Shown here: positions 1,167 through 33,374 of the stretch, piece after piece | Numbering within the stretch: the stretch's first letter is position 1 | How the letters are laid out: each line of letters starts with the position of its first letter | From: a virus | Length of the DNA stretch: 33,649 bases | Virus record (IMG/VR): IMGVR_UViG_3300001256_000037 | Span: 1-33,649 of that record | Direction: 5' to 3' (one strand) | Notes under the pieces: model-generated | The model's database searches: none | What the model was told of the DNA's origin: nothing | What the model saw: the letters and a program-made list of their open reading frames with translations, nothing else | Made by a program: the position numbers and the translations under genes

Positions 1167-1354
1167 AACAGCATCCCCATAGCATAGCTGACAGCACAAA
1201 AAAGTAGTTCACTCAGATGAGGTTCGACACGGTGTCTATAGGTTATCAGGAACATTATGGCTAGCACCAATAAAATGATGCGTAGGCTCAAACTGATAGC
1301 CGCTAGCTCACCAATTGAAAACGGCAGTAACACAAACCAAATTAAGTTAGTCAT
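1163..1354 (-). CDS. Small membrane protein, two or three TM segments (holin candidate)
   Basis: 63 residues, mostly hydrophobic. One helix covers about residues 3-19, a second about 24-38 (RIILLVLAIMFLITY), then a short basic turn (RHRVEPH), then a C-terminal apolar stretch ending in MGMLL. Size and topology are compatible with a phage holin. A C39 peptidase that could be the lysin lies across the divergent control region at 2751-3272. Holins cannot be recognised by sequence alone, so the role is inference. It overlaps the upstream gene by 8 nt and the downstream gene by ATGA. Confidence 0.7.
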   Translation of the reverse strand: MTNLIWFVLLPFSIGELAAISLSLRIILLVLAIMFLITYRHRVEPHLSELLFCAVSYAMGMLL

Positions 1355-1742
1355 TGTCTAAGTAATGTAAATAGGCGTTAGCGATGCGCTTGCGTAAATT
1401 AGGGTACAGCATGATGCTGCTAATATAATCTGGCAAGTCAGTTACAGGAGATTCGGATGCTATGCGCTGTTTGTCTATTGTAACCATAGTAAACGGCGAG
1501 GCATCTCTAGGTGTTTTGATTAGTGTAGCGTGGTCACGTAGCCAGTGTAAACAGTAACCGTTAACACTACGCCTAATAAAACTTTGCTGACTACGCAATG
1601 GCTGACTGGTATCTAGCCTGGCCATCAGGCCTACAATCTTAGGAAAACAAAATGACTCTAGTTCGTCTGGGTGTTGCTTATATTTAAACGCCTGTTGTCT
1701 ACACTGTTGCACTACTAGCTTTAAAATGTCGTCGTAATTCAC
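1347..1742 (-). CDS. Sigma-70 region-2-like protein, lacking region 4
   Basis: 131 residues resembling sigma-70 region 2 and the start of region 3. An N-terminal helix carries a core-binding-like pattern (ELE...GLMARLD, about 28-44). It is followed by FIRRSVNGYCLHWLRDHATL (about residues 55-74) and IKTPRD, matching the F..Y....I...I..YLRD....KTPR arrangement of regions 2.3-3.0. The remaining 50 residues show no clear region 4 helix-turn-helix. A natural inference is a phage transcription factor redirecting host RNA polymerase, perhaps to the late GGGTACTA boxes. The start is GTG 1742 with GGTGG about 7 nt upstream; the same GGTGG(C/T)ATAGT leader precedes the tape measure gene. It might instead be an anti-sigma or unrelated helical protein. 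Confidence 0.6.
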   Translation of the reverse strand: MNYDDILKLVVQQCRQQAFKYKQHPDELESFCFPKIVGLMARLDTSQPLRSQQSFIRRSVNGYCLHWLRDHATLIKTPRDASPFTMVTIDKQRIASESPVTDLPDYISSIMLYPNLRKRIANAYLHYLDND

Positions 1743-1770: not shown

Positions 1771-1779
1771 AGTATAGCA
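1771..1779 (-). promoter_or_regulatory. Extended -10 promoter for the sigma-like unit
   Basis: On the minus strand TGC-TATACT (box 1776-1771) lies about 30 bp before the GTG at 1742. The nearest TTGACG (1807-1802) is 25 bp away, too far for a normal -35, so the extended -10 or an activator would matter. A further TTGACG (1839-1834) with CACTAT at 18 bp lies upstream, giving possible tandem promoters within the operator array. Confidence 0.5.
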
Positions 1780-1802
1780 CACTCACAGCTACACTGTAAA
1801 GC

Positions 1803-1868
1803 GTCAACTATAGTGTCCAAATTACCCTAAAAGCGTCAACTATAGTGTCATCTGTCAACTATAGTTGC
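1803..1868. promoter_or_regulatory. Three-site operator-like array
   Basis: GTCAACTATAGTGTC occurs at 1803-1817 and 1835-1849. A near-perfect palindromic version (GTCAACTATAGTTG) lies at 1854-1867. Start-to-start spacings are 32 and 19 bp. Each site approximates the full palindrome GTCAACTATAGTTGAC, as expected for a dimeric DNA-binding protein. The array is mirrored at 17539-17604 with the same spacings. Iterons of a replication origin are the main alternative. Confidence 0.75.
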
Positions 1869-2045: not shown

Positions 2046-2053
2046 GGGTACTA
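2046..2053 (+). promoter_or_regulatory. GGGTACTA box, candidate late promoter (lysin unit)
   Basis: GGGTACTA begins 31 nt before ATG 2077 and directly follows a mini-hairpin (CAGC-GTA-GCTG, 2032-2042). The same box at nearly the same distance precedes 17992 (+) and 17321 (-). An extended -10 (TGG-TATAAG, 2060-2068) also lies here, but it would give an almost leaderless transcript. Confidence 0.55.
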
Positions 2054-2076: not shown

Positions 2077-2352
2077 ATGATTGACTCACTAATCTGGCAA
2101 CTTGACTTAACCCTGCAAAATGCTAGTAGTCTGGCTAGCTTGCCTAACCTAAGCGATGACGAACAGGCTACAGTAACCCAATTTGTAGTCAAAACACTGG
2201 ACAGCGTTGACACTCAATTGCTAACCAACCGAGATTTAATAACATATATTAAGTTATATGTCAAGTATCGCCAGTCACAGGCTGAGTTTGATATTGGAGA
2301 CTATTTAAGTGATGCCCAACTTGCCAGAATCCAGGGAATCGTTAGCCAGTGA
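2077..2352 (+). CDS. Hypothetical protein, first gene of the lysin unit
   Basis: 91 residues, predicted mostly helical (MIDSLIWQLDLTLQNASSL, then a helical LSDDEQATVTQFVVKTLD segment). It has no signal peptide, Cys or recognised motif. It is the first of three overlapping rightward genes ending in the C39 peptidase and lies 24 nt after a GGGTACTA box, so late expression is likely. No clear Shine-Dalgarno sequence is present. The function is unknown; a small virion or tail-completion protein is one possibility. Confidence 0.75.
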   Translation: MIDSLIWQLDLTLQNASSLASLPNLSDDEQATVTQFVVKTLDSVDTQLLTNRDLITYIKLYVKYRQSQAEFDIGDYLSDAQLARIQGIVSQ

Positions 2353-2791
2353 CCTGTTAGACCACTTTACCAGTGTCAAGACACTAAAGCAGTTGTTTAT
2401 TACCCTGGTACTAATAACTAACATAGCCGGAATATATGACGTAGTATTTAACAATGCCGCAGGTGTCAGAGGCCTGATACAAGCATATCTAAGCATTAAC
2501 CGATACACACCCCCTAGAGCTATTAGACAGCGTGACCTAGAGTTTATTGACACGGCATTAGCTGACTACCCTGGCACTAGGGTAACTGTGTTTGAGCTTA
2601 ACCCTGACGCTGGCTTTGAATCAGTGGTGTCCTATGTTGATGCACAAAAAATTGTTTTGTATGACTCTGGTATACCAATTGCAGTATTGGCAATCAACCC
2701 ACCAGTGCCACAGGCAGTTTTACAGCTAATATTTAATTATTTTAGAGGATATGAGGACATTAACAGTTCCATACTTGAGCCAACACCGTAA
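2312..2791 (+). CDS. Hypothetical protein with apolar N-terminal segment
   Basis: About 159 residues. ATG 2312 follows an in-frame GTG at 2309; either start overlaps the previous gene by about 40 nt. Residues about 28-42 (LKQLFITLVLITNIAGI) are apolar enough to be a membrane or buried helix. The remainder has an alpha/beta pattern (VTVFELNPDAGFESVV, KIVLYDSGIPIAVLAIN). I do not recognise the family. It overlaps the start of the peptidase gene by 41 nt, so the three genes are likely translated together. A tail-tip or lysis accessory role is only a contextual guess. Confidence 0.75.
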   Translation: MPNLPESRESLASDLLDHFTSVKTLKQLFITLVLITNIAGIYDVVFNNAAGVRGLIQAYLSINRYTPPRAIRQRDLEFIDTALADYPGTRVTVFELNPDAGFESVVSYVDAQKIVLYDSGIPIAVLAINPPVPQAVLQLIFNYFRGYEDINSSILEPTP

Positions 2792-3272
2792 CACTCGAAA
2801 CCCGCTAGGCAGTTGCAATGTTACCTGTATAGCAATGTTGCTGCACTTTTATGGTGCTACTTGGGTAACACCAGACTACTTGTATGACTGGCTATTGGCA
2901 CGCAACTTGTCTAGACACTCTGGCTATGACCTGAGCTTTGCTTTCAATAGTTTGACAACTGAGGCAACTAATAGGTTTAGCACCACGTCAAACCTGACAA
3001 CGCTTAGGCAACAAATTAATGCAGGTTATCCGGGCATTATTCACGGCTATTTTACAACATTTGGACATATTATCGTGGTATGTGGCTATGATGCTACTGG
3101 CTTTATTGTCAATGACCCCTATGGTGAGTGGTTTAGCAGTGGCTACCGTACTCAGCTAACTGGTGAAAACTTGCACTATAGCACAGGCTTAATTAAGCGA
3201 TTGTGTATGCCAGACGGTAATCTGTGGCTACACAAATTTTCAACACATAGCCCACCCTGTAAGGGTTTGTAG
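2751..3272 (+). CDS. C39-like cysteine peptidase, candidate phage lysin
   Basis: 173 residues with the papain-fold layout of peptidase C39-like domains: oxyanion Gln 11 in PYLSQ, nucleophile Cys 22 in GSCNVTCIAMLL, catalytic His 106 in FGHIIVVCGYD and Asp 122 in IVNDPYGEW. Phages often use this single-domain form as a cell-wall amidase or peptidase during lysis or in the tail tip. No separate cell-wall-binding domain and no signal peptide are visible, so release would need a holin (candidate at 1163-1354). GAGG five bases before ATG 2751 is one of the better ribosome-binding sites in the window. It could be a virion-associated hydrolase instead. Confidence 0.8.
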   Translation: MRTLTVPYLSQHRNTRNPLGSCNVTCIAMLLHFYGATWVTPDYLYDWLLARNLSRHSGYDLSFAFNSLTTEATNRFSTTSNLTTLRQQINAGYPGIIHGYFTTFGHIIVVCGYDATGFIVNDPYGEWFSSGYRTQLTGENLHYSTGLIKRLCMPDGNLWLHKFSTHSPPCKGL

Positions 3273-3400
3273 TTGACTGGCTTTAAACTAGCCTACTAGG
3301 GTAGTAGTACAACAGGTAAGGTAGTAGACTGCTATGCAGTTGACGTTTTTGCTGGGTACGCAGTAGGTGGGTAGTTAAGGTGTATACATACTAAACCAAA
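3273..3400 (+). promoter_or_regulatory. Intergenic control region before the tail gene
   Basis: Contains an inverted-orientation piece of the dispersed element (CTACTAGGGTAGTAG around 3294-3308, then ACAACAGGTAAGGTAGTAG), a mini-hairpin ACTGC-TAT-GCAGT (3328-3340), TTGACG (3340-3345) and a GGGTACGC sequence (3354). A GGGTAGTT variant of the late box lies at 3369-3376, 32 nt before ATG 3401, matching the spacing seen at other late genes. Confidence 0.5.
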
Positions 3401-10371: not shown

Positions 10372-10400
10372 ATTCTAGCATGGCTGATGAAGGGTGTCAA
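10372..10400 (-). promoter_or_regulatory. Sigma-70-type promoter for the coiled-coil gene
   Basis: Minus strand TTGACA (10400-10395), 17-bp spacer ending in TGC, then TAGAAT (10377-10372). The -35 lies inside the 3' end of the helicase gene. AAGG sits upstream of ATG 10345. Confidence 0.75.
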
Positions 10401-12253: not shown

Positions 12254-12282
12254 ATATTAGCAGCCCCCCTGAAACTTGTCAA
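12254..12282 (-). promoter_or_regulatory. Sigma-70-type promoter for the helicase gene
   Basis: Minus strand TTGACA (12282-12277), 17-bp spacer ending TGC, TAATAT (12259-12254). The -35 and spacer are enclosed by the dyad CAGCCC (12261-12266)/GGGCTG (12285-12290), which could be an operator or hairpin over the promoter. Confidence 0.8.
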
Positions 12283-13010: not shown

Positions 13011-13039
13011 AGTATAGCAAGCTAAAAACTGGCTGTCAA
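13011..13039 (-). promoter_or_regulatory. Sigma-70-type promoter for 12982-12299
   Basis: Minus strand TTGACA (13039-13034), 17-bp spacer ending TGC, TATACT (13016-13011). The -35 overlaps the last codons of the upstream gene. Confidence 0.8.
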
Positions 13040-13412: not shown

Positions 13413-13441
13413 AGTGTACCCCTACCTACTAATGTTGTCAA
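13413..13441 (-). promoter_or_regulatory. Sigma-70-type promoter for 13386-13036
   Basis: Minus strand TTGACA (13441-13436), 17-bp spacer, TACACT (13418-13413). A second TATACT lies nearer the gene (about 13403-13398) without a matching -35. Confidence 0.7.
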
Positions 13442-13641: not shown

Positions 13642-15738
13642 TTATTCTAATACTGAGACTAGGGTAAGTTGTACGCTACGGGTATCTGCATAACTAGCCT
13701 GATAGCTGACCAGGTAGCAATCCCAGTCTGTGCCATCTACACTAACCAAATAAGTCTCAGTAGGGGGGGAGTCCCAGTATTGGGTTAGTAGGTTAAGCAT
13801 GGCTGGTGTTACCTCAGTGCTTATGCTTAGTTTGTAACTAATACTAGCTGGCTTGTTTAATACCACACCACCACCTAAGTTGCGGTTGTAACCAGTATCA
13901 GTGTTGTCTGGTACAACCTGTAAGCTACCTTGCCCAAACCCAACACTACCCACACTGTATCTAATGTTGGATAAGGTGGCTATAGCTTGACCTGACTGAC
14001 CGGCAAACACATCACCCAAATAGGTGTCAGATGTATCAGTAGTGTCGGTTTGCTCTGACTCTAGCTGAATATTTACAGCCAGGGAATCGCCTGACGAGTC
14101 AACAACTGTAAAGCTAGTGCTGACTACTGGTACAGCAGTAACCGTTATTTGACCTGTGTTAACGTCCAAGCCGTAGCTAGCTAAATTACCGTTGCTCAGG
14201 GTAACAGGGTATTGCAGTGTACCCAGCGTACCTACTACTACCCCTATAGTAGCGGTGTCAGCTACCACTAAAGCCAGGTCAGACTCAGTAGCAACGTCAT
14301 AAACGATTACTCTAACTGTCTTAGTAATAGGGGTGTTAGGTAGTGCAGGAGTAGCCGTTACTGTGAGCAGGTAAGTGCCAACTGCTAAAATTGATGCTGC
14401 TGTGATTATTATGTCACCAGTGTCACTGACTATGCTAAATACTGTACTGGGTGTTAGTGTATAGCTGAGTGCCAAGCTTTCGGCAGCGTCAATACTAACC
14501 TGACCCACGCTACTACCATTGCTAGAGTCTACAGCTATCCAGAATTCCTGTGTCTGGGTTAGTTTAGTAGGGTCATAGACATTAACAAACGTAGTAAACT
14601 CACCAGTATTGCCATTAGCGTCTGTGCCAATTACGCTGAGTTCTAGCAGTTGCTCGTTAATTTGTGTGCCGTCAACTACTACCAGTTGGTTACTGGAGTT
14701 AATATCAAAACTGAAATTAGGGCTAGCTAGGCTGTAACTTAACCCAGTAGGGTATGTACCTACTACCTGGTTAGTGGCTGGCAACGGGTTTAAGTTAAAT
14801 CGCTGAGTAGGTAGCTGTAACTGGTTATCGGCTGTAAGCAGGTGTATGACACAACTAACGGTTAAACCCGTGCCATAGCTTACGGTTACTATGTGACCAT
14901 CTGATAACCCCCCTAGTGACAGCATTATTAGCTCACCAGTGTAGGGGTCAATAGCAAAGTTGTTGCCAGTATTACCGCTAACAATGCTAAACACTGGCTT
15001 TATACCTGTGTCACCCTGTACTGTGACCTCAATTTTACCCAGGCTGCTACCACTGCTAAACCCGTCAGTTTTCACATAAAAATCGTAGTCAGGTCTGTCA
15101 GCTAACGGGGCTTCGGCTATGTCTAGCACATATACTGTAACCGGGGTGTTGCCTATTGTTAGGGTGTATTCGTCAGTTTCCTCATAATTCAGGCTACCAC
15201 TAACGCTAAGAGTGCCGCTAGTCGCATCGTAGCTAAACGGCAAGTCTGGCCTACCAGTTAGCAATGCTGACTCTGAGAATCCTAGTATAGTACCGACTAC
15301 TGTACCAGTATTAGCGTCTTCTGATACTGAGAAGCTTTGACCTTCGACTATAGCCAGCTGGGTTTGCGTTGGTTCCCCATAGCCGTGCAAAGTAACCAGA
15401 AACTCGCTACTACCCAAACGTGAGTACCAGTCCTCCAATACCCAGAAAATACTGTAGCTGCCATCGTCATCACCTAAGCTTTGCTGACTGCTAACAGTTA
15501 AACCTAGCCTTACTATGTTACCACTGCGGTACTCAGCTAGTTGGTTGATTAGCTTTGACTTGACCTCAATAAATGTGTCAACGTCTTGCACTAAAAATGA
15601 CACCCAGTATTCTGTTACTGGCTCAGTAGTCTGGGTTCCTGTAGCCGGGTCATAGTTGTAATCGGTATATTGTCTAAAGTGTTCAGGTGCTACCAGTGGT
15701 AACTCAGTAGCTATATCGTCAAACAGTATGTAATCCAT
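13642..15738 (-). CDS. Cadherin-like repeat virion protein
   Basis: 698 residues. After a ~110-residue N-terminal domain (LVQDVDTFIEVKSKLINQL, IFWVLEDWYSRLG) come about five cadherin/Ig-like beta-sandwich repeats of 80-90 residues (about 120-555). They show the typical FSVSEDANTGTVVG start, F.ID..TG.L and NYEETDEYTLTI. A Thr/Asp linker (TQTDTTDTSDTYLG) leads to a C-terminal domain of ~130 residues (SYKLSISTEVTPAMLNLL, TYLVSVDGTDWDCYLV), possibly the virion-anchoring part. Such proteins decorate tails or capsids and bind carbohydrates or cells. The start overlaps the upstream HNH gene by TAATG, so the two are co-translated. Confidence 0.8.
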   Translation of the reverse strand: MDYILFDDIATELPLVAPEHFRQYTDYNYDPATGTQTTEPVTEYWVSFLVQDVDTFIEVKSKLINQLAEYRSGNIVRLGLTVSSQQSLGDDDGSYSIFWVLEDWYSRLGSSEFLVTLHGYGEPTQTQLAIVEGQSFSVSEDANTGTVVGTILGFSESALLTGRPDLPFSYDATSGTLSVSGSLNYEETDEYTLTIGNTPVTVYVLDIAEAPLADRPDYDFYVKTDGFSSGSSLGKIEVTVQGDTGIKPVFSIVSGNTGNNFAIDPYTGELIMLSLGGLSDGHIVTVSYGTGLTVSCVIHLLTADNQLQLPTQRFNLNPLPATNQVVGTYPTGLSYSLASPNFSFDINSSNQLVVVDGTQINEQLLELSVIGTDANGNTGEFTTFVNVYDPTKLTQTQEFWIAVDSSNGSSVGQVSIDAAESLALSYTLTPSTVFSIVSDTGDIIITAASILAVGTYLLTVTATPALPNTPITKTVRVIVYDVATESDLALVVADTATIGVVVGTLGTLQYPVTLSNGNLASYGLDVNTGQITVTAVPVVSTSFTVVDSSGDSLAVNIQLESEQTDTTDTSDTYLGDVFAGQSGQAIATLSNIRYSVGSVGFGQGSLQVVPDNTDTGYNRNLGGGVVLNKPASISYKLSISTEVTPAMLNLLTQYWDSPPTETYLVSVDGTDWDCYLVSYQASYADTRSVQLTLVSVLE

Positions 15739-17321
15739 TATTTAAAACTAGCTTGGAGGTATTTGTAAAATTTCTCACGGTCGCTATTTGACAATATATA
15801 CGAGCCATCTGGTTTTTTTGCGTTTAAGTCAGGTATTTTGTTGCCTGCTCTAGCCCAAGACCAGGGGCTAGCTGATAACTCGCTGCGAGGTATAGGGGGT
15901 ATATTTTTATCTATACGTGTGATAATGCTTTTAATGTAGGCTGGATGCTTGTCAAACATTTTTGAGTTGGCCAAGTTACCACCCGAATCACCATAAAATA
16001 GTGCGAACTTATCCATAACCCGGTGTATCTGTTTGGGTTTAAGCTTGTCCAAACTGTCGATTTTAACTATGCCTTTAATGTCTTTGTTTGACGGGATACG
16101 AGACTGTTTAGCTGTCTGACCTGACCCTTGACTTCGTAAATCATCATACTTCTCAGATATTGCCATAGTACCAACTTTAGCAATAGTGATGTCAGCATCC
16201 TCTTGGGCAGCTTTCATTACCTCCTTTAACGCTGCCTTTTTAGCATCACCCTTTAACCCATCAAAAGACGATTTAGATTTGATTAGGCCTACCTCATTCA
16301 AGGCTGTAAACACTTTGTTAACCTGGTCAGGGCTAAGTATGTCTATCTCGGCAGGTGTTGGTAACTTTGGCTGAATGTTGGTATAAGGCAGCGTAGACGC
16401 ACCAAAGTGTGCCAGCAATCCATTCTCGACCCCTCGCTGTAGCTCTAGTAACGGTCTTTCCTTTTTCTCAAACTCATCTATCTTTTCGTCTAAGTGCTTG
16501 TTATAGCCATCGTCACCTTCTGCTAAGTGTATTTTAAGCTTTTTGATAGTGCCATCTAAATCAGAGTCACCTTTATAGTTACGGTTTATTTCTGGCTTAA
16601 CCCAGACCCAGTTATCAGATGTAATAGTGGTGTTGAAGTCAGCAGTTTTTTCTTTACTAACCTTGCCACCGTGACCCCCACCCTTTTTTAGTGGTACTAT
16701 GTGGTCTAGGTCTGCCGGAAACTCTAGTGTCTTGCCAGTCCAGGGGTCAATTACGTCACCGTTATCGTCAGTTTGCTCCATCATGGCTTTTAACATCGAT
16801 TTACGCATTAACTCGGTGTCTTTGTTCCACTCGTCTCGTATACGGTTGCCCTCCCCTCTAGCTGGCGCACCGGCATTAGCACTAAAAATCAGTTGTTGCT
16901 GGTCTGGTGTCATCGCTTCCCACACCGCTTCGACTTCGGTATCTGACACTGTGCGTCGTTTCATAGTTGGCAGGTCATACACACCCACGCCTTTGCCTTT
17001 GTCGTGGAATTCACCAATAGTCTCACCAGTCGCATCAATAGGTGTGTTCAAAATAGCTGTAATCTGGCCAGGGGGTAGGCGTAAGCTTGACTGTTTAACA
17101 ATCTCCCGACGTTTGGCCACGTCAACAGGTTCAGCTTCTAGTTCGTCTAAAACTTTGGGTGTCTGTTCTTTACTCTTGACCCGTGTTGCTGACGTACCAC
17201 CTTTAACTAGGTTATCCAACACTTTGCTAGTCTTCGAGTTTAGTCTACAAGTCTTGTTTGCTGGTAAACACACATAACCACAGGGGTCGCCATGTTTGCA
17301 TTTTGTGGGTTTAGTTGCCAT
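15738..17321 (-). CDS. HNH nuclease-domain protein with N-terminal Cys cluster
   Basis: 527 residues. The N-terminus holds C8, C14, C18 and C25 in KCKHGDPCGYVCLPANKTC, a zinc-knuckle-like pattern seen in some phage head and cyanobacterial proteins. An HNH/His-Me core follows: DPWTGKTLEF, DLDHIVPLKKGGG (His 207), then DNWVW...EINRNYKG (Asn 237, Asn 246). The ~270-residue C-terminal part is helical and Lys-rich. Not a homing nuclease by look: it is large, long-tailed and first in the operon with the cadherin virion protein behind a late-type box. That suggests a virion-associated or packaging-related nuclease, or an injected toxin-like protein. Confidence 0.75.
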   Translation of the reverse strand: MATKPTKCKHGDPCGYVCLPANKTCRLNSKTSKVLDNLVKGGTSATRVKSKEQTPKVLDELEAEPVDVAKRREIVKQSSLRLPPGQITAILNTPIDATGETIGEFHDKGKGVGVYDLPTMKRRTVSDTEVEAVWEAMTPDQQQLIFSANAGAPARGEGNRIRDEWNKDTELMRKSMLKAMMEQTDDNGDVIDPWTGKTLEFPADLDHIVPLKKGGGHGGKVSKEKTADFNTTITSDNWVWVKPEINRNYKGDSDLDGTIKKLKIHLAEGDDGYNKHLDEKIDEFEKKERPLLELQRGVENGLLAHFGASTLPYTNIQPKLPTPAEIDILSPDQVNKVFTALNEVGLIKSKSSFDGLKGDAKKAALKEVMKAAQEDADITIAKVGTMAISEKYDDLRSQGSGQTAKQSRIPSNKDIKGIVKIDSLDKLKPKQIHRVMDKFALFYGDSGGNLANSKMFDKHPAYIKSIITRIDKNIPPIPRSELSASPWSWARAGNKIPDLNAKKPDGSYILSNSDREKFYKYLQASFK

Positions 17322-17346: not shown

Positions 17347-17354
17347 TAGTACCC
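17347..17354 (-). promoter_or_regulatory. GGGTACTA box, candidate late promoter (HNH/cadherin unit)
   Basis: Minus strand GGGTACTA begins 33 nt before ATG 17321 and follows mini-hairpin CCAGC-ATA-GCTGG (17370-17358) after four bases. A TATTATAGT sequence lies adjacent to the start codon. Confidence 0.55.
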
Positions 17355-17538: not shown

Positions 17539-17604
17539 GACACTATAGTTGACAGGTGACACTATAGTTGACGCTTTTAGGGGTAATTTGCTACTATAGT
17601 TGAC
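17539..17604. promoter_or_regulatory. Three-site operator-like array, mirror of 1803-1868
   Basis: GACACTATAGTTGAC at 17539-17553 and 17558-17572, and CTACTATAGTTGAC at 17591-17604. Spacings of 19 and 32 bp are the mirror of the copy at 1803-1868. Confidence 0.75.
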
Positions 17605-17627: not shown

Positions 17628-17663
17628 AGGGGTACTAGCTTAGTAATAGTTTGAGTAACTACA

Positions 17664-17870
17664 ATGTTTGGTTTTTTGTTAGGTTTTGCAACCGCAGCAT
17701 CCGTTACTGTGGTGACAGTGTTAAGCCGGGAGTCCAGGGCTGATGTTGCCTGTAAAGAACTAGAAAGGGTTGGCAAGGTACTGGCACGTAATACTGAGGC
17801 TACTGATGACCAGCTAGCCAGTATCGAATACTCAAAACAGGTAGTCAAATCGCTAGGTGACTTCTACTAA
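17664..17870 (+). CDS. Small N-terminally anchored membrane protein
   Basis: 68 residues. Residues 2-20 (FGFLLGFATAASVTVVTVL) form one membrane helix. The rest is a charged helix (ESRADVACKELERVGKVL...) with one Cys. The topology is signal-anchor-like; an inner spanin or small tail or membrane protein would be compatible. It is the first gene after the array and tandem promoters and is separated from the tape measure by another hairpin region. Function unknown. Confidence 0.65.
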   Translation: MFGFLLGFATAASVTVVTVLSRESRADVACKELERVGKVLARNTEATDDQLASIEYSKQVVKSLGDFY

Positions 17871-17959: not shown

Positions 17960-17967
17960 GGGTACTA
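17960..17967 (+). promoter_or_regulatory. GGGTACTA box, candidate late promoter (tape measure)
   Basis: Begins 32 nt before ATG 17992. A TGG-TATAGT sequence abuts the start codon; GGTGG six bases before the ATG could serve as ribosome-binding site. Confidence 0.55.
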
Positions 17968-22569: not shown

Positions 22570-22904
22570 ATGCTTTGTTTAAGTTCGGGTTTAGCTTCAG
22601 CACCAAACAAAAACTCAGTCTCATTCAGCAGTTGTTTAGCTCGAGCCACGTTTTTACCAGTGCTAGCTGTCAGTACATTGGCTTGACTTACATAGTTAGC
22701 CTGACGTAGCAAAGTCATACCTTTAGTAAACTTGTTATGGTCATTAGCCTGTCCCAATACTTCTTGAGCAGTTTCTAGTCGCTTAGTAGCTGTTTCTACC
22801 TGTACTATGGCTTTCTGGTTACGCAATTCTAACCCTTGCACCAAAGTGTCATAATAAACTGAGTCTTTTTCTCGTTTGGTTTGGGTGTATTGGGCTTTAT
22901 TCAT
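22566..22904 (-). CDS. Small helical hypothetical protein
   Basis: 112 residues from ATG 22904, which overlaps the upstream stop (TAATG) and has GGAG eight bases upstream; the frame could start at 22916. It is entirely helical and charged (TKREKDSVYYDTLVQGLELR, VETATKRLETAQEVLGQA), ending in an acidic tail. No motif recognised. It closes a three-gene leftward unit with an HNH protein. Confidence 0.75.
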   Translation of the reverse strand: MNKAQYTQTKREKDSVYYDTLVQGLELRNQKAIVQVETATKRLETAQEVLGQANDHNKFTKGMTLLRQANYVSQANVLTASTGKNVARAKQLLNETEFLFGAEAKPELKQSI

Positions 22905-23230
22905 TACCATCTCCAAAGTTGTAGTGCAATTCTAAGTACCCAGTATCTAACTCTTAAACATTGGATAGCAAGAAATTTGTTGCGATTATTCCACTTGTTG
23001 CGGTACTGTACCCATTTAGCAGGTACATGGTAGCTGTTATGACAAGGTACACACAACGGAAACAAATACAAACCAATGGCCCAAAAGCTAGGCTTAACCA
23101 CGTTACCGATGCGATACAGTGTGTGATGTGCCTCTAAGTTTCGTTTTCGGTAACAGCAGCTACAACGCCATTTAGTTGACTTTTTGGTAGCCACTGCTAT
23201 TTTATCCCAGTTATCGGGGTAAACACTCAT
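22904..23230 (-). CDS. HNH endonuclease
   Basis: 108 residues from ATG 23230, chosen for the ATGA overlap with the upstream stop. Compact zinc-bound HNH fold: C23-x2-C26, the NLEAHHTLYR core with His 35-36, then LFPLCVPCHNSYH with C60-x2-C63 and H64/H68. Stand-alone HNH proteins of this size are commonly homing endonucleases, or packaging-associated when beside terminase, which is not seen here. The basic Trp-rich C-terminus (KWVQYRNKWNNRNK) likely contacts DNA. It sits next to the tape measure gene but on the opposite strand. Confidence 0.85.
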   Translation of the reverse strand: MSVYPDNWDKIAVATKKSTKWRCSCCYRKRNLEAHHTLYRIGNVVKPSFWAIGLYLFPLCVPCHNSYHVPAKWVQYRNKWNNRNKFLAIQCLRVRYWVLRIALQLWRW

Positions 23231-24263: not shown

Positions 24264-25001
24264 TTAATTTGCTAACTGACTAATAGCGTGGTCAATGTAA
24301 TCTTTGTATGTCCAGTGTTTGCGGTTACGGACAAATTTATCGGCACAAAACAGCTTTACTTGTGTAGCCAAATCCATTGACTCAACTTCGGCAAGTGTCC
24401 AGTGGTTTAAACCAACATTAGCAGTGCCGTCACAAGTCTGAGGCAATAGCCGCGACTGTTTGGCTGTACGACCTACTAACCGAGTAGTCAGGTAATCGTG
24501 GGCTACAGCTAGGCTAAAACGTTTGGCTAACATCCAGTTTTGAAAGTAGTTGTGCGCCTTAATTTCTAGCTGCTGTTGCCGTGCCTCTTGAATAGTTAAC
24601 GCTCGGTTTTCAACGTTAGCATAGGAATCTAGCGGTGTTAAATTACCCTCAAATCGGATATCTAACGCCTGTGACATCAGACTGGGTACTAACTGGGTAG
24701 CGACAGCGTTACCTTTGGCAAACTCGCGCAATACAATCTGATTAAACACCTCTGTGCTTAATGCTACAATGGTTTGAATACCTGAATCCGTTTGGGCTGT
24801 TGTTTCGCTCACCTGTTGAGCCTTGCCTAGAGCCTCTTTCAGCCATTTTGATGCAACAAAACCACGCACCGAAGAGTCAGCAATATTTAATACACGGGCT
24901 GTCTGACGAATACCGATAACCCAGTCACCTGACTCAGTTTTGTATCCGGTTAAATCAACACCACCGACTGTAATTGTGACCTGTTTAGCAACGTAACTCA
25001 T
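24264..25001 (-). CDS. Antirepressor-like (BRO/P22AR-type) regulator candidate
   Basis: 245 residues. The N-terminal 70 residues (VTITVGGVDLTGYKTESGDW, IGIRQTARVLNIADSSVRGF) resemble the BRO-N or antirepressor domain, where a short beta pair is followed by A.VL.... DNA-contact helices. The next part (STEVFNQIVLREFAKGNAVA) matches a F..I...EFAKGN.VA pattern I associate with cyanobacterial members. The C-terminal third is basic (KFVRNRKHWTYKDYIDHAI). Likely a DNA-binding regulator. It lies next to a ribbon-helix-helix gene, forming a possible switch. AAGG precedes ATG 25001 by seven bases. Confidence 0.6.
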   Translation of the reverse strand: MSYVAKQVTITVGGVDLTGYKTESGDWVIGIRQTARVLNIADSSVRGFVASKWLKEALGKAQQVSETTAQTDSGIQTIVALSTEVFNQIVLREFAKGNAVATQLVPSLMSQALDIRFEGNLTPLDSYANVENRALTIQEARQQQLEIKAHNYFQNWMLAKRFSLAVAHDYLTTRLVGRTAKQSRLLPQTCDGTANVGLNHWTLAEVESMDLATQVKLFCADKFVRNRKHWTYKDYIDHAISQLAN

Positions 25002-25062: not shown

Positions 25063-25278
25063 CTACTCGTTCAATAATCTAGCTAATAATCGAGCCAACT
25101 CAGCAGCATCAGTATTAGGGTATCTGTGTACCCCCCTAGTGACAAAAGTTAAGCGGTCTAATGTTGCCTCTCGAATAAACTCACCTATCGACATATTATG
25201 AGCTATACAGTAGTCCCGTATCCTATCCCAGTGGTCTTGCTCAAATTTAACGCTAGTGTTATGTGAAAGCTTAGGCAT
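25063..25278 (-). CDS. Ribbon-helix-helix transcription regulator
   Basis: 71 residues with the MetJ/Arc pattern: a strand HNTSVKFEQDHWDRI, helix A (WDRIRDYCIAHN), turn MSIGEF, helix B IREATLDRL. Such proteins bind palindromic operators as dimers and often in arrays. It is a candidate for binding the GTCAACTATAGTTGAC sites, which is inference only. Strong promoter at 25311-25339. The C-terminal tail (AAELARLLARLLNE) is a likely dimerisation helix. Confidence 0.8.
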   Translation of the reverse strand: MPKLSHNTSVKFEQDHWDRIRDYCIAHNMSIGEFIREATLDRLTFVTRGVHRYPNTDAAELARLLARLLNE

Positions 25279-25649: not shown

Positions 25650-25673
25650 GCAAATAGTACCCTATTACAGCAG

Positions 25674-26807
25674 ATGTACAATAACCCTAATAACAGTGAC
25701 ATACAAGTAAACTTTGAGGCCAAAGCCTCGGCTAGTGGCACTTATGCCATCTTGGTAACAGGTTGGTCTAATCCAGATAGGTTTGACTGGGACATCGTAC
25801 CTAACCTAATTGCTAAAGGCAGTTTGTTTAGTGCCAAAGCAGGCACAAAGCAGCTAGTAGATAGTATCTGTGCTAACCCTAGTGTAGACAGAGTGTATTT
25901 TCTAGCACTAACCAAGTATGACCTGGTTAGCGGGTCTTTTAAAGCTGCTTACCGTGCTGTTACCGAGCTAGGTGTTGCTAGCACTGTCAGTTTTAGCTTG
26001 CCAATTTTGCCAATACAACCGTCTAAGCCACACAACCTTAAGCCTAGACCTCGGTTGCAATTCAAACCAGGCAAAGCAAAAGCTAGTCAGCCAGTATTTC
26101 ACTATCAGGGTAGTGACCTAGACATGGTTTGCGCCAAAATGATTAACAATGTCACCAGCTTTGGAACTCACTACCCTAGCCGAGGTTTCACTAGCTTGCC
26201 TAGCCAAGTAGCACAGCTAACCGATTTCAAAAAACCCGAGTATCATAGCTACTTTGACCAGTGGCTAGATGCTAACCCTGATTTGTCTGATGTTAGATAT
26301 ACCTACGGTAGTCGCATACAGCACCAAACAGCAGATTTAGTTAGCGGTTCTCAGTTTAGCACCCAGCGAGTAATTAGCCTGTTGCTGCCTAGCGATTTGA
26401 CAGCAGACACTAAGCCATGCTTAACCCAGTTATCGGTGTTTGATAATCAGCTAACAGCAGTGTTTCGCAGTCACGAGTTAGTCACAGCTTGGCGGTTAAA
26501 CGTCTTAGCTTTGCAATACTTACATTATTTGTGGTTTCCTGACTGTGCTAGCCGTATGCTGATTGTTATTAGCCTAAATGCCCACATTTATGACTTTGAC
26601 CTAGCTAAACCACTGCCTTTTGTGTGTGACCCTATTGGCTATTTTACTTTTAGTCACAACAATAACAGCTACCAAATTTATCTAAATGACAACCTGGTAG
26701 CTGAATGTGGCACTAAGTCGGGTGTTATGAGGTGGGTTAGTAAGCACTATCCCGGGCTAGATACCAGTCACGCCTTCTGGATTGCTAACACTGTTCACGC
26801 TTTGTAA
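25674..26807 (+). CDS. thyA: Thymidylate synthase (ThyA-type) with N-terminal DUF4346/MtrA-like domain
   Basis: Converts dUMP to dTMP. In 377 residues, the C-terminal ~170 contain the ThyA active site: TYGSRI (210-215), Arg 232, catalytic Cys 249 in PCLTQLSVF, R265-S266 followed by Glu 268 where most enzymes have Asp, Asn 276 in WRLNVLAL (the dUMP-selecting Asn), and NAHIYDFDL with His 304 and Tyr 306 that hold the deoxyribose. The N-terminal ~110 residues (YAILVTGWSNPDRFDWDIVP, GSLFSAKAG, NPSVDRVYFLAL) resemble the domain found before archaeal-type thymidylate synthases. A proline-rich linker (110-128) separates the halves. It is a lone rightward gene with its own promoter; the end overlaps the convergent tail gene by 51 nt. 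Confidence 0.8.
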   Translation: MYNNPNNSDIQVNFEAKASASGTYAILVTGWSNPDRFDWDIVPNLIAKGSLFSAKAGTKQLVDSICANPSVDRVYFLALTKYDLVSGSFKAAYRAVTELGVASTVSFSLPILPIQPSKPHNLKPRPRLQFKPGKAKASQPVFHYQGSDLDMVCAKMINNVTSFGTHYPSRGFTSLPSQVAQLTDFKKPEYHSYFDQWLDANPDLSDVRYTYGSRIQHQTADLVSGSQFSTQRVISLLLPSDLTADTKPCLTQLSVFDNQLTAVFRSHELVTAWRLNVLALQYLHYLWFPDCASRMLIVISLNAHIYDFDLAKPLPFVCDPIGYFTFSHNNNSYQIYLNDNLVAECGTKSGVMRWVSKHYPGLDTSHAFWIANTVHAL

Positions 26808-27116: not shown

Positions 27117-29504
27117 TTAAGCGGTTCTATAGTTTCCTGTTATTCTTAGCCAGCCATCTTTTAAGAGGTTGAAATTAATCTGTTGCGCCCCCCCTCCAGT
27201 TGCAATAGGGTAAAAGAATATTACATAGGGTGTAGTTGACCCCGTTACACCTGCTGTCATTGGCGCGGTTTCGTAGCCAGAGAATACATTCCAACTCAGC
27301 AACCCAATACTGTCAATTAGAGAGGCTGCACTAACCCGTTTAAACGGCAACCCTCCCATAACACAAGGCCCTGGCGTAAGGCCTGATTGAGTAGGTAATA
27401 TAACCCTAGCTGAAAACTTGACATCATTGCCTGTTCGCCACCAATAGCCGAACTGACTCCCATAAACAGGTTGTGTATTATCCGCTAAATTATAAAGGAT
27501 TGGCGTAAATGAGCCTTCATCTACAGGTATATTAGGTGCATACAGATTAGAACAGTGAATGTTTCCTGCTACACTAATACCGCCTTCTGTCCTAATACTT
27601 GCCGGGGAGGTGGGCGACGTTGAATTGGTTTTAGAGCTTACCTCTACATCGCCACTAGTAGCAACACGTATATGCACAGCAGCCTCACCGCTACTGTTTA
27701 TAGTAATTAATCTAAAGTTGGGTGCAGAAGCAACCCCCCGACAATCAACCTGCCAAATTGATGATGATGAACTACCAGGGTTCTCAGGGTAGTGCAAGTG
27801 CAGTTCACCCCCCTCACTACTGGAATTTTGGCGACCGAACTTAGTACCACCAGCCAGTAGAGGGGCTGTATTTTGCAGTACAACATTAGAACTTAATCTA
27901 GCATCAGATAATACACCTGTACCAATATTGTCGGCATTTGTAGTGTCAGTATTAGGCACATTAGGCAACCCTACATCAGCTTTGGTTAACACCACTGCAC
28001 CAGTTTTACCACTAACGCTATCCACAGTATTTACATTAGCACCTGTAGCTATGGTGTCTAGTTTTGTCTTAAATGCACTGTTATTAAACCAGCTAGCTAT
28101 AGCTTGCCATACTGTTACAGGCGACCATGCTAACCGTGTTGTTGCTGTGCCAGCTTCGGCCTGAGCCTGAGTTGCTGTACTAGCTACCCACTCACGGCTG
28201 TCAGTTAGTCGGCTGTCAGCATTTGTAACTACCAGGCTAGTGTCTATCTCAAATGTTTTGGCTTCTGTGCCGTTATAGCTATTAGACAGTAACCCTGTAC
28301 CTGCTGTCAGTAGTGCCTGTGTAACGTCTGCTGTACCGTCAAAAGCTACGCCATTAATCAATCTAGCTGTTGCCAGCTTACTAGCTGTTGCAGCATTGCC
28401 TGTTGTGCTTTGGTTAAGCGTTGGTATTAAACTAGCATCAACTATGCCACTAGCCAAGTTGCTAGCATTGGTAAAGTCTAGGTTAGGCACACTACTCAGG
28501 CCTATGTCTGCTTTGGTTAAGCTAATGTCACCAGTACCATCAAAAGCAACACCGTTAATCAATCTAGCTGTTGCCAGCTTACTGGCTGTTGCAGCATTAC
28601 CTGTTGTGCTTTGGTTAAGTGTAGGTATTAGACTAGCATCAACTATGCCACTAGCTAAGTTGCTAGCGTTGGTGCTATCCACATCAACAACGTTACCTAA
28701 ACCCAGGCTAGTTTTGGTTAGGCTAATGTCTGCTGTACCATCAAAAGCTACGCCATTAATCAATCTAGCTGTTTCTAGCTTGCTGGCTGTTGCAGCATTG
28801 CCTGTTGTGCTTTGGTTAAGCGTTGGTATTAGACTAGCATTTACTATACCACTGGTTAGGTTGCTGGCGTTGGTGTTGTCAACATCAACAATATTGCCTA
28901 GACCCAGGCTAGTTTTGGTTAGTACGACACTGCCAGCGTTACCATTTACTGAAGTCACAACAGCAGTCGGGTCAATCTCAAATGTTACTGGGTTACTACC
29001 ATCATACTCAGCTACTACCAGACCACTACCTGCTGTCAATACTGGTAAACTAATACTGGTAACTGGCAAGCTTACATTTTCCTCAGTACCAGTATACTCA
29101 ACAGGGGTGCTAGTAGCCAGTCCTGTGATTTGTAACTGGGTGGGTCTAATACTGATTCCCTCTAGCTGTGCAAGGCGAGTCAGCAACCCTTGAGCTACGC
29201 CATTAGGTAGTGGGTCAACTATTAGGCTAGTAAGCTGTAATGGTTCGTCTGACTCTGGTACTCTAATTTTAAAATTCAAGCCAGACTCAAACTGAACTCT
29301 ATAGTAGCAGTGATTGCTACTGCTTAGGTCGTTCCAGATATCAAAGCTAAATTGTCCGGTTAGTGGGTCAGGGGTTACTACCAGTGGTTTTGATGAGTGA
29401 TACAGAACATCACGTGTCGTGCCATAGTCTACTAGGCTAACTTTAAAGCTTTGTGTTTCGGGACTGCCATCTGGTCTAGTTAGAGTTCCGTTAATTGTTA
29501 CCAT
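27117..29504 (-). CDS. Tail fibre / receptor-binding protein
   Basis: 795 residues. The N-terminal ~110 residues form a beta-sandwich (TINGTLTRPDGSPETQSFKV, FSFDIWNDL) likely attaching to the tail. The middle is a long trimeric-fibre region with three nearly identical ~67-residue repeats (LTKTSLGLGN.VDVD.TNAS..., TLNQSTTGNAATASKL, ARLINGVAFDGT), then the classic LTKADVGLPNVPNTDTTNAD unit. The C-terminal ~135 residues (GYWWRTGNDVKFSARV, DGWLRITGNYRTA) look like a receptor-binding head. No intramolecular chaperone motif is evident. It starts inside the end of the preceding gene (7-nt overlap). Confidence 0.9.
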   Translation of the reverse strand: MVTINGTLTRPDGSPETQSFKVSLVDYGTTRDVLYHSSKPLVVTPDPLTGQFSFDIWNDLSSSNHCYYRVQFESGLNFKIRVPESDEPLQLTSLIVDPLPNGVAQGLLTRLAQLEGISIRPTQLQITGLATSTPVEYTGTEENVSLPVTSISLPVLTAGSGLVVAEYDGSNPVTFEIDPTAVVTSVNGNAGSVVLTKTSLGLGNIVDVDNTNASNLTSGIVNASLIPTLNQSTTGNAATASKLETARLINGVAFDGTADISLTKTSLGLGNVVDVDSTNASNLASGIVDASLIPTLNQSTTGNAATASKLATARLINGVAFDGTGDISLTKADIGLSSVPNLDFTNASNLASGIVDASLIPTLNQSTTGNAATASKLATARLINGVAFDGTADVTQALLTAGTGLLSNSYNGTEAKTFEIDTSLVVTNADSRLTDSREWVASTATQAQAEAGTATTRLAWSPVTVWQAIASWFNNSAFKTKLDTIATGANVNTVDSVSGKTGAVVLTKADVGLPNVPNTDTTNADNIGTGVLSDARLSSNVVLQNTAPLLAGGTKFGRQNSSSEGGELHLHYPENPGSSSSSIWQVDCRGVASAPNFRLITINSSGEAAVHIRVATSGDVEVSSKTNSTSPTSPASIRTEGGISVAGNIHCSNLYAPNIPVDEGSFTPILYNLADNTQPVYGSQFGYWWRTGNDVKFSARVILPTQSGLTPGPCVMGGLPFKRVSAASLIDSIGLLSWNVFSGYETAPMTAGVTGSTTPYVIFFYPIATGGGAQQINFNLLKDGWLRITGNYRTA
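28316..28920 (-). repeat. Three tandem ~204-bp repeats in the tail fibre
   Basis: Copies run roughly 28920-28724, 28720-28520 and 28519-28316. DNA identity is high, for example GCATTGCCTGTTGTGCTTTG near 28392 and 28795. Unequal recombination could shorten or lengthen the fibre by 67-residue steps. Confidence 0.8.
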
Positions 29505-33366: not shown

Positions 33367-33374
33367 TAGTACCC
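33367..33374 (-). promoter_or_regulatory. GGGTACTA box, candidate late promoter (capsid operon)
   Basis: Minus strand GGGTACTAT begins 40 nt before GTG 33334. A CACAGC...GCTGTG stem (33397-33373) abuts it, replacing the mini-hairpin at other sites. Confidence 0.5.

Follow-up and report, generated by a model that had tools for sequence, protein, structure and literature searches.

A candidate −35-less late promoter box and a putative reduced SigF-like sigma factor in a probable cyanophage

The window analysed here is an entire virus record from IMG/VR, 33,649 bases (33.6 kb) long. In it the 8-mer GGGTACTA lies in the sense orientation before mostly structural genes. It sits 31–44 nt upstream of start codons, a location that these genomes also use for ordinary −10 hexamers; it has no conserved −35 and recurs before orthologues in related phages. 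We favour, with moderate confidence, the explanation that GGGTACTA forms the −10-like core of a late promoter specific to the phage, one that lacks a −35 and is read by a SigF-like sigma factor reduced to region 2. The virus probably infects cyanobacteria, and GGGTACTA probably acts in it as a promoter for a very small phage sigma.

The major head protein, which matches non-T4 families, and the primase are closest to their counterparts in cyanophages, among them S-TIM5, S-CBWM1 and A-HIS1, a resemblance that makes a cyanobacterial host likely. A nearly identical sequence, L001, adds 144 bases at the right end; these (L001:1–144) suggest a divergent plus-strand gene just past the end of the window. 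An independent 35.4 kb relative, G1, shows 58–72% protein identity to the window (ribonucleotide reductase 58%, primase 61%, capsid 72%), while in the 77 kb relative G2 (L009–L012) the same three proteins are 50%, 44% and 55% identical, respectively. A 3 kb contig, L013, encodes a capsid protein 74% identical to that of the window. Protein queries with 15738–17321, 25674–26807 and a single-sequence primase yielded no relatives, and a scan of genome contigs returned only a distant Cupriavidus locus. The DNA pattern GTACTACTACCCTAGTA, tried as a relative finder, matched two unrelated contigs by chance and was abandoned. Gene starts are those of a simple home-made gene caller, with the start of the G1 head protease corrected by homology.

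Several other features of the window were observed. CTAG occurs 344 times (10.2 per kb) and is also common in G1 (9.0 per kb), and the intergenic regions are made up of related TACTA/TAGTA repeat units. The tail fibre gene (27117–29504) contains three in-frame 201-nt tandem repeats at 28311–28913. A small ribbon–helix–helix protein encoded at 25063–25278 on the minus strand, with a homologue in G1, is a candidate regulator. Both large divergent intergenic regions carry three copies of ACTATAGTTGAC (17542–17604, plus strand; 1803–1865, minus strand). This word, absent from G1 and G2, forms most of the near-palindrome GTCAACTATAGTTGAC and resembles an operator for a dimeric regulator.

Exact copies of GGGTACTA number eight in the window, compared with 2.1 expected from shuffles. 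They are given here with one variant and one weak candidate:

2046..2053, plus strand: GGGTACTA, 31 nt before gene 2077
3369..3376, plus strand: variant GGGTAGTT, 32 nt before gene 3401 (654 aa, with a G2 homologue)
17347..17354, minus strand: GGGTACTA, 33 nt before gene 17321 (minus)
17630..17637, plus strand: GGGTACTA, 34 nt before a 68-aa ORF at 17664
17960..17967, plus strand: GGGTACTA, 32 nt before the 1525-aa gene 17992 (with a G2 homologue)
33367..33374, minus strand: GGGTACTA, 40 nt before the head maturation protease gene 33334 (minus)
22934..22941, minus strand: weak candidate GGGTACTT, 37 nt before a 112-aa ORF at 22904 (minus), adjoining the putative tape-measure gene
8161, minus strand: non-conforming GGGTACTA, within the ribonucleotide reductase gene
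24684, plus strand: non-conforming GGGTACTA, antisense in 24264–25001
25655–25662, minus strand: non-conforming GGGTACTA, intergenic, 63 nt from a doubtful ORF and overlapping the leader of gene 25674 on the opposite strand

The boxes that an initial annotation had placed at 2046, 17960, 17354 and 33374, and the GGGTAGTT variant at 3369, lie at exactly the distances it gave (31, 32, 33, 40 and 32 nt, respectively). It had missed one conforming copy, that at 17630; the remaining three of the eight exact copies (8161, 24684 and 25655) do not conform. Because the 17630 box overlaps a possible TTGACG-16-TACTAT promoter, it is the least certain of the five conforming copies. Gene 2077 is the first of a unit (2077–3272) that does include the expected lysin, a C39-peptidase/endolysin-like protein. 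The 17347 box precedes a unit comprising 15738–17321 and 13642–15738; cadherin-like repeats are present in 13642–15738, as had been proposed. Pfam and PHROGs detected no HNH domain in 15738–17321. By size and place, gene 17992 fits a tape measure. Among the boxed genes are those for head protease, portal, tape measure and tail, along with some of unknown function, and their ‘late’ status is deduced from gene function.

The fixed distance claimed for the box is borne out statistically. Five of the six intergenic copies in the window sit 31–40 nt before a start codon in the sense orientation, where 3.2% would be expected under the null (P = 2e-7). As the 31–40 nt range came from the earlier reader, G1 serves as an out-of-sample test: here 4 of 10 intergenic copies fall within it (null 4.3%, P 6e-4), and half of the intergenic copies are off-position. 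When positions were pooled, GGGTACTA ranked first of 754 recurrent 8-mers (P 1e-9). After its one-base shift, TGGGTACT, the next words were GTTAGAAT and GTTATACT, both pieces of ordinary −10 boxes, which indicates that the box occupies the −10 position. The reverse-complement control gave none of six at 31–40 nt in the window, and the antisense count was zero in the window, G1 and G2.

Boxes recur at corresponding genes of the relatives. The head protease gene has a box at 40 nt in the window, at 44 nt in both G1 (start 6279) and L013, and, as GGGTATATT, at 35 nt in G2. The post-capsid gene is boxed in G1 and L013, and the portal gene in G1 (GGGTACTA) and G2 (GGGTACTCT). The G2 homologue of 13642–15738 has GGGTACTT 37 nt upstream, a box whose form is also given as GGGTACTTT. 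Exact GGGTACTA was found at no G2 promoter; there the box has drifted to GGGTA[CG]T, of which 4 of 9 intergenic copies lie 28–46 nt before a start (P 7.5e-4), some of them preceding orthologous late genes. A matrix trained on the boxes of the window and G1 failed to pick out promoters in G2, where this drift has occurred. GGGTAGT is also found just after ordinary −10 boxes, for example at G1 1845 and G1 3095, so that the degenerate form is ambiguous. Gene 25674 of the window has an ordinary promoter and its G1 homologue a GGGTAGT box. In many G2 promoters, of both TATAGTAGG and GGGTAGTAT type, a small hairpin, CACCCTT-loop-AAGGTG, was seen directly before the −10 and after a CACTACTAG element. 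A dedicated element for late promoters, as the initial annotation had proposed, is thus favoured by where the box lies, how it is oriented, which class of gene follows it and its conservation in two relatives.

Ordinary promoters of the following kind were found in the window, all on the minus strand:

1771..1800, minus strand: TTTACA-18-TATACT, sigma gene; no GGGTACTA at promoter position
12254..12282, minus strand: TTGACA-17-TAATAT, primase gene; early-type, no box
13011..13039, minus strand: TTGACA-17-TATACT, gene 12982; no box
10372..10400, minus strand: TTGACA-17-TAGAAT, gene 10345; no box
13413..13441, minus strand: TTGACA-17-TACACT, gene 13386; no box

The last four are classical TTGACA-17-TAnnnT promoters. 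Across the window and G1, a strong −35/−10 pair precedes none of 16 boxed genes, as against 15 of the 37 others (P 0.002 by Fisher test, calculated with 38). No −35-like word recurs upstream of 17 boxes, and within 32 nt upstream of these no shared 5- or 6-mer of the GTTTAA (SigB) or TAGGC (SigF) −35 type was detected. Small dyads lie just before the boxes at 2046, 17347, G1 6235 and G1 11424. The small hairpin said to precede each box is clear at two sites in the window (2046 and 17347), but dyads at several other boxes are no better than the intergenic background and some boxes have none; a hairpin is thus no defining part of the box.

The protein that had been called sigma-like belongs to a family with members in all three phages:

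1347..1742, minus strand: putative reduced sigma factor, 131 aa; region 2 plus an LRD...IKTPR start of region 3
G1 1845–2255 and G2 60456–60866: homologues of 136 aa each, 45% (G1) and 30% (G2) identical

Pfam and PHROGs, searched with E values as high as 10, yielded no sigma match for this family. The best NCBIfam match of all three homologues is cyanobacterial SigF (PRK07408; E 0.002–0.006, with a score far below the curated cut-off). Comparison by hhalign of the three-sequence alignment with the SigF-type sigma of the phage record MaAM05, which is of cyanobacterial type, gave a probability of 74% (E 3e-5). In controls, twelve proteins scored below 1%, as did single E. coli sigma sequences, and T4 gp55 gave 0.1%. 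The match to MaAM05 spans region 2 and an LRD...I+xPR start of region 3 and ends at residue 81, for which reason we file the protein as a reduced relative rather than a full SigF. Region 4, which recognizes the −35, binds the beta-flap and occupies 257–304 of the MaAM05 reference, was not detected in 1347–1742. A PDB sequence search returned only two matches, both sigma factors. AlphaFold modelled approximately residues 1–72 with confidence as three helices, and the remaining 50 residues with low confidence as two short helices. With two models, Foldseek matched sigma region 2 (probability 0.97–0.99, rmsd 1.8–2.4, E 0.26–0.53), the high-probability PDB matches being the SigE N-terminal domain, sigma-28 and sigma-A; in the viral structure library no named entry matched clearly. 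These lines of evidence are each weak to moderate, yet they concur, and support the assignment of 1347–1742 as a sigma of the SigF/SigB kind.

According to our preferred explanation, the host RNA polymerase, carrying its main sigma, would transcribe the early genes, the sigma gene among them. Next, the phage would make the 131-aa sigma of SigF/SigB kind, pared down to region 2 and the beginning of region 3. This protein would bind the host core polymerase and open promoters through GGGTA(C/G)T alone, and the leaders of the late transcripts would be short, roughly 15–25 nt. In the absence of a detectable region 4, no −35 is expected; and since SigB/SigF-type sigmas read GGGTA/GGTAA, a SigF-like protein without region 4 should read a GGGTA-type −10 only. 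Drift of the box in G2 may reflect co-evolution with its own divergent sigma. Counting against this explanation are the off-position copies in the window and G1, the lack of an exact box at G2 promoters, the ambiguity of the degenerate form, the ordinary promoter of gene 25674 and the weakness of the individual sigma scores. The best argument for connecting box and protein is that the family of the one and the word of the other agree although each was arrived at separately; we infer that the sigma encoded at 1347–1742 reads the GGGTACTA box.

Alternatively, the main sigma of the host could use the box as an extended −10 without a −35, TACTAT preceded by GGG; late expression would then arise through a phage activator or replication, and the sigma-like protein would be otherwise employed. 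We consider this unlikely, though worth weighing. TACTAT and TAGTAT are acceptable −10s and the box is positioned as a −10 should be. All four GGGTA[CG]T boxes at G2 promoters have T at the last −10 position, and the G2 forms GGGTACTTT, GGGTAGTAT and GGGTACTCT also fit the TAnnnT −10 of the main sigma. No base of a main-sigma −10 is better conserved than this last T, but among 10 aligned boxes of the window and G1 only 3 have T directly after GGGTACTA; such variation weakens the extended −10 interpretation, although the G2 forms would fit it. Furthermore, GGG is kept in nearly all box forms across the phages, and no conserved activator site was found upstream of the boxes.

It is improbable that a host SigF-type sigma reads the box, with the phage protein serving as helper, anti-sigma or decoy. 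Cyanobacterial SigF, which is SigB-like, reads GGTAA at −12 (PMC2758279), close to GGGTA; its promoters also need TAGGC at −32. TAGGC was not seen upstream of the boxes, however, and a SigF relative is encoded by all three phages themselves.

Very improbable, too, is that the box belongs to a family of repeats (TACTA...GGGTAGTAG units) spreading between genes, its distance from start codons being incidental. Related words do abound between genes, with 10 intergenic copies of GGGTAGTA, the commonest of them, in the window and many repeat families besides. Nevertheless, none of these 10 sits at the promoter position, compared with five of six for GGGTACTA, and this lack of positional preference argues against a mere repeat effect; enrichment is confined to the sense orientation, and the box recurs at orthologous genes of relatives.

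That the box is a translational or leader element in mRNA rather than a promoter is scarcely credible: a fixed distance from the start codon and the location of a few boxes inside small dyads would suit such an element, but at 31–44 nt the box lies much too far out for a ribosome-binding site, the sequences upstream of the boxes share no common fold, and the −10 boxes of ordinary promoters use the same distance. A sigma-54 promoter was dropped on spacing, and the box as a −35 was rejected because the transcription start would fall at or after the start codon.

A search of the literature for GGGTACTA as a phage promoter found no description of it, none of the matches listed concerning a phage. 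In bacteria, Bacillus subtilis SigB reads GTTTAA-N15-GGGTAT (PMC9847131), and SigB homologues of Streptomyces coelicolor use GGGTAT, GGGTAG and GGGTAC (PMC8346170). The phage system resembles these SigB/SigF/SigG-type systems in the SigF family match of its protein and in the GGGTA-/GGTAA-type −10 at the box. It differs in that the protein ends after the start of region 3, without region 4, and in that the boxes lack a GTTTAA or TAGGC −35.

Relatives of T4 and SPO1 are known to encode late sigma factors of their own, and SPO1 gp28 and gp34 are phage sigmas that direct a temporal class. Some sigmas of Firmicutes phages are homologous to host sporulation sigmas (PMC9429907). In contrast to these, with SPO1 likened by description, the protein considered here is reduced and belongs to a cyanophage-like lineage. 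Ma-LMM01, likewise a cyanophage with temporal classes, has neither a phage-specific motif nor a gp55-type sigma, and its late promoters resemble SigA promoters (PMC5780444).

What is new here is a putative cut-down phage sigma of SigF type, paired with a promoter box of its own. If the reading is correct, it would provide a naturally minimal sigma–promoter pair for use in cyanobacteria, and joint drift of box and sigma could be tested from sequence by comparing the window and G1 with G2. T4 late promoters consist of a −10 element without a −35. The T4 sigma gp55 is itself very small and recognizable in domain 2 only (PMC2988020). A small domain-2 sigma and −10-only promoters would therefore be common to both phages, whereas the box is GGGTACTA rather than the TATA-type element of T4, 1347–1742 has no detectable sequence match to gp55, and the head protein is, as noted, of non-T4 families. 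Chances are about even that, outside the T4 group, a line of cyanophages arrived on its own at a late switch resembling that of T4, in which a host-type SigF, cut down to region 2 and the beginning of region 3, directs host polymerase to −35-less GGGTACTA promoters. If so, it would be a second, independent case of a late sigma, drawn from the SigF/SigB branch, and region 2 alone would be a repeatable route to a phage-specific polymerase.
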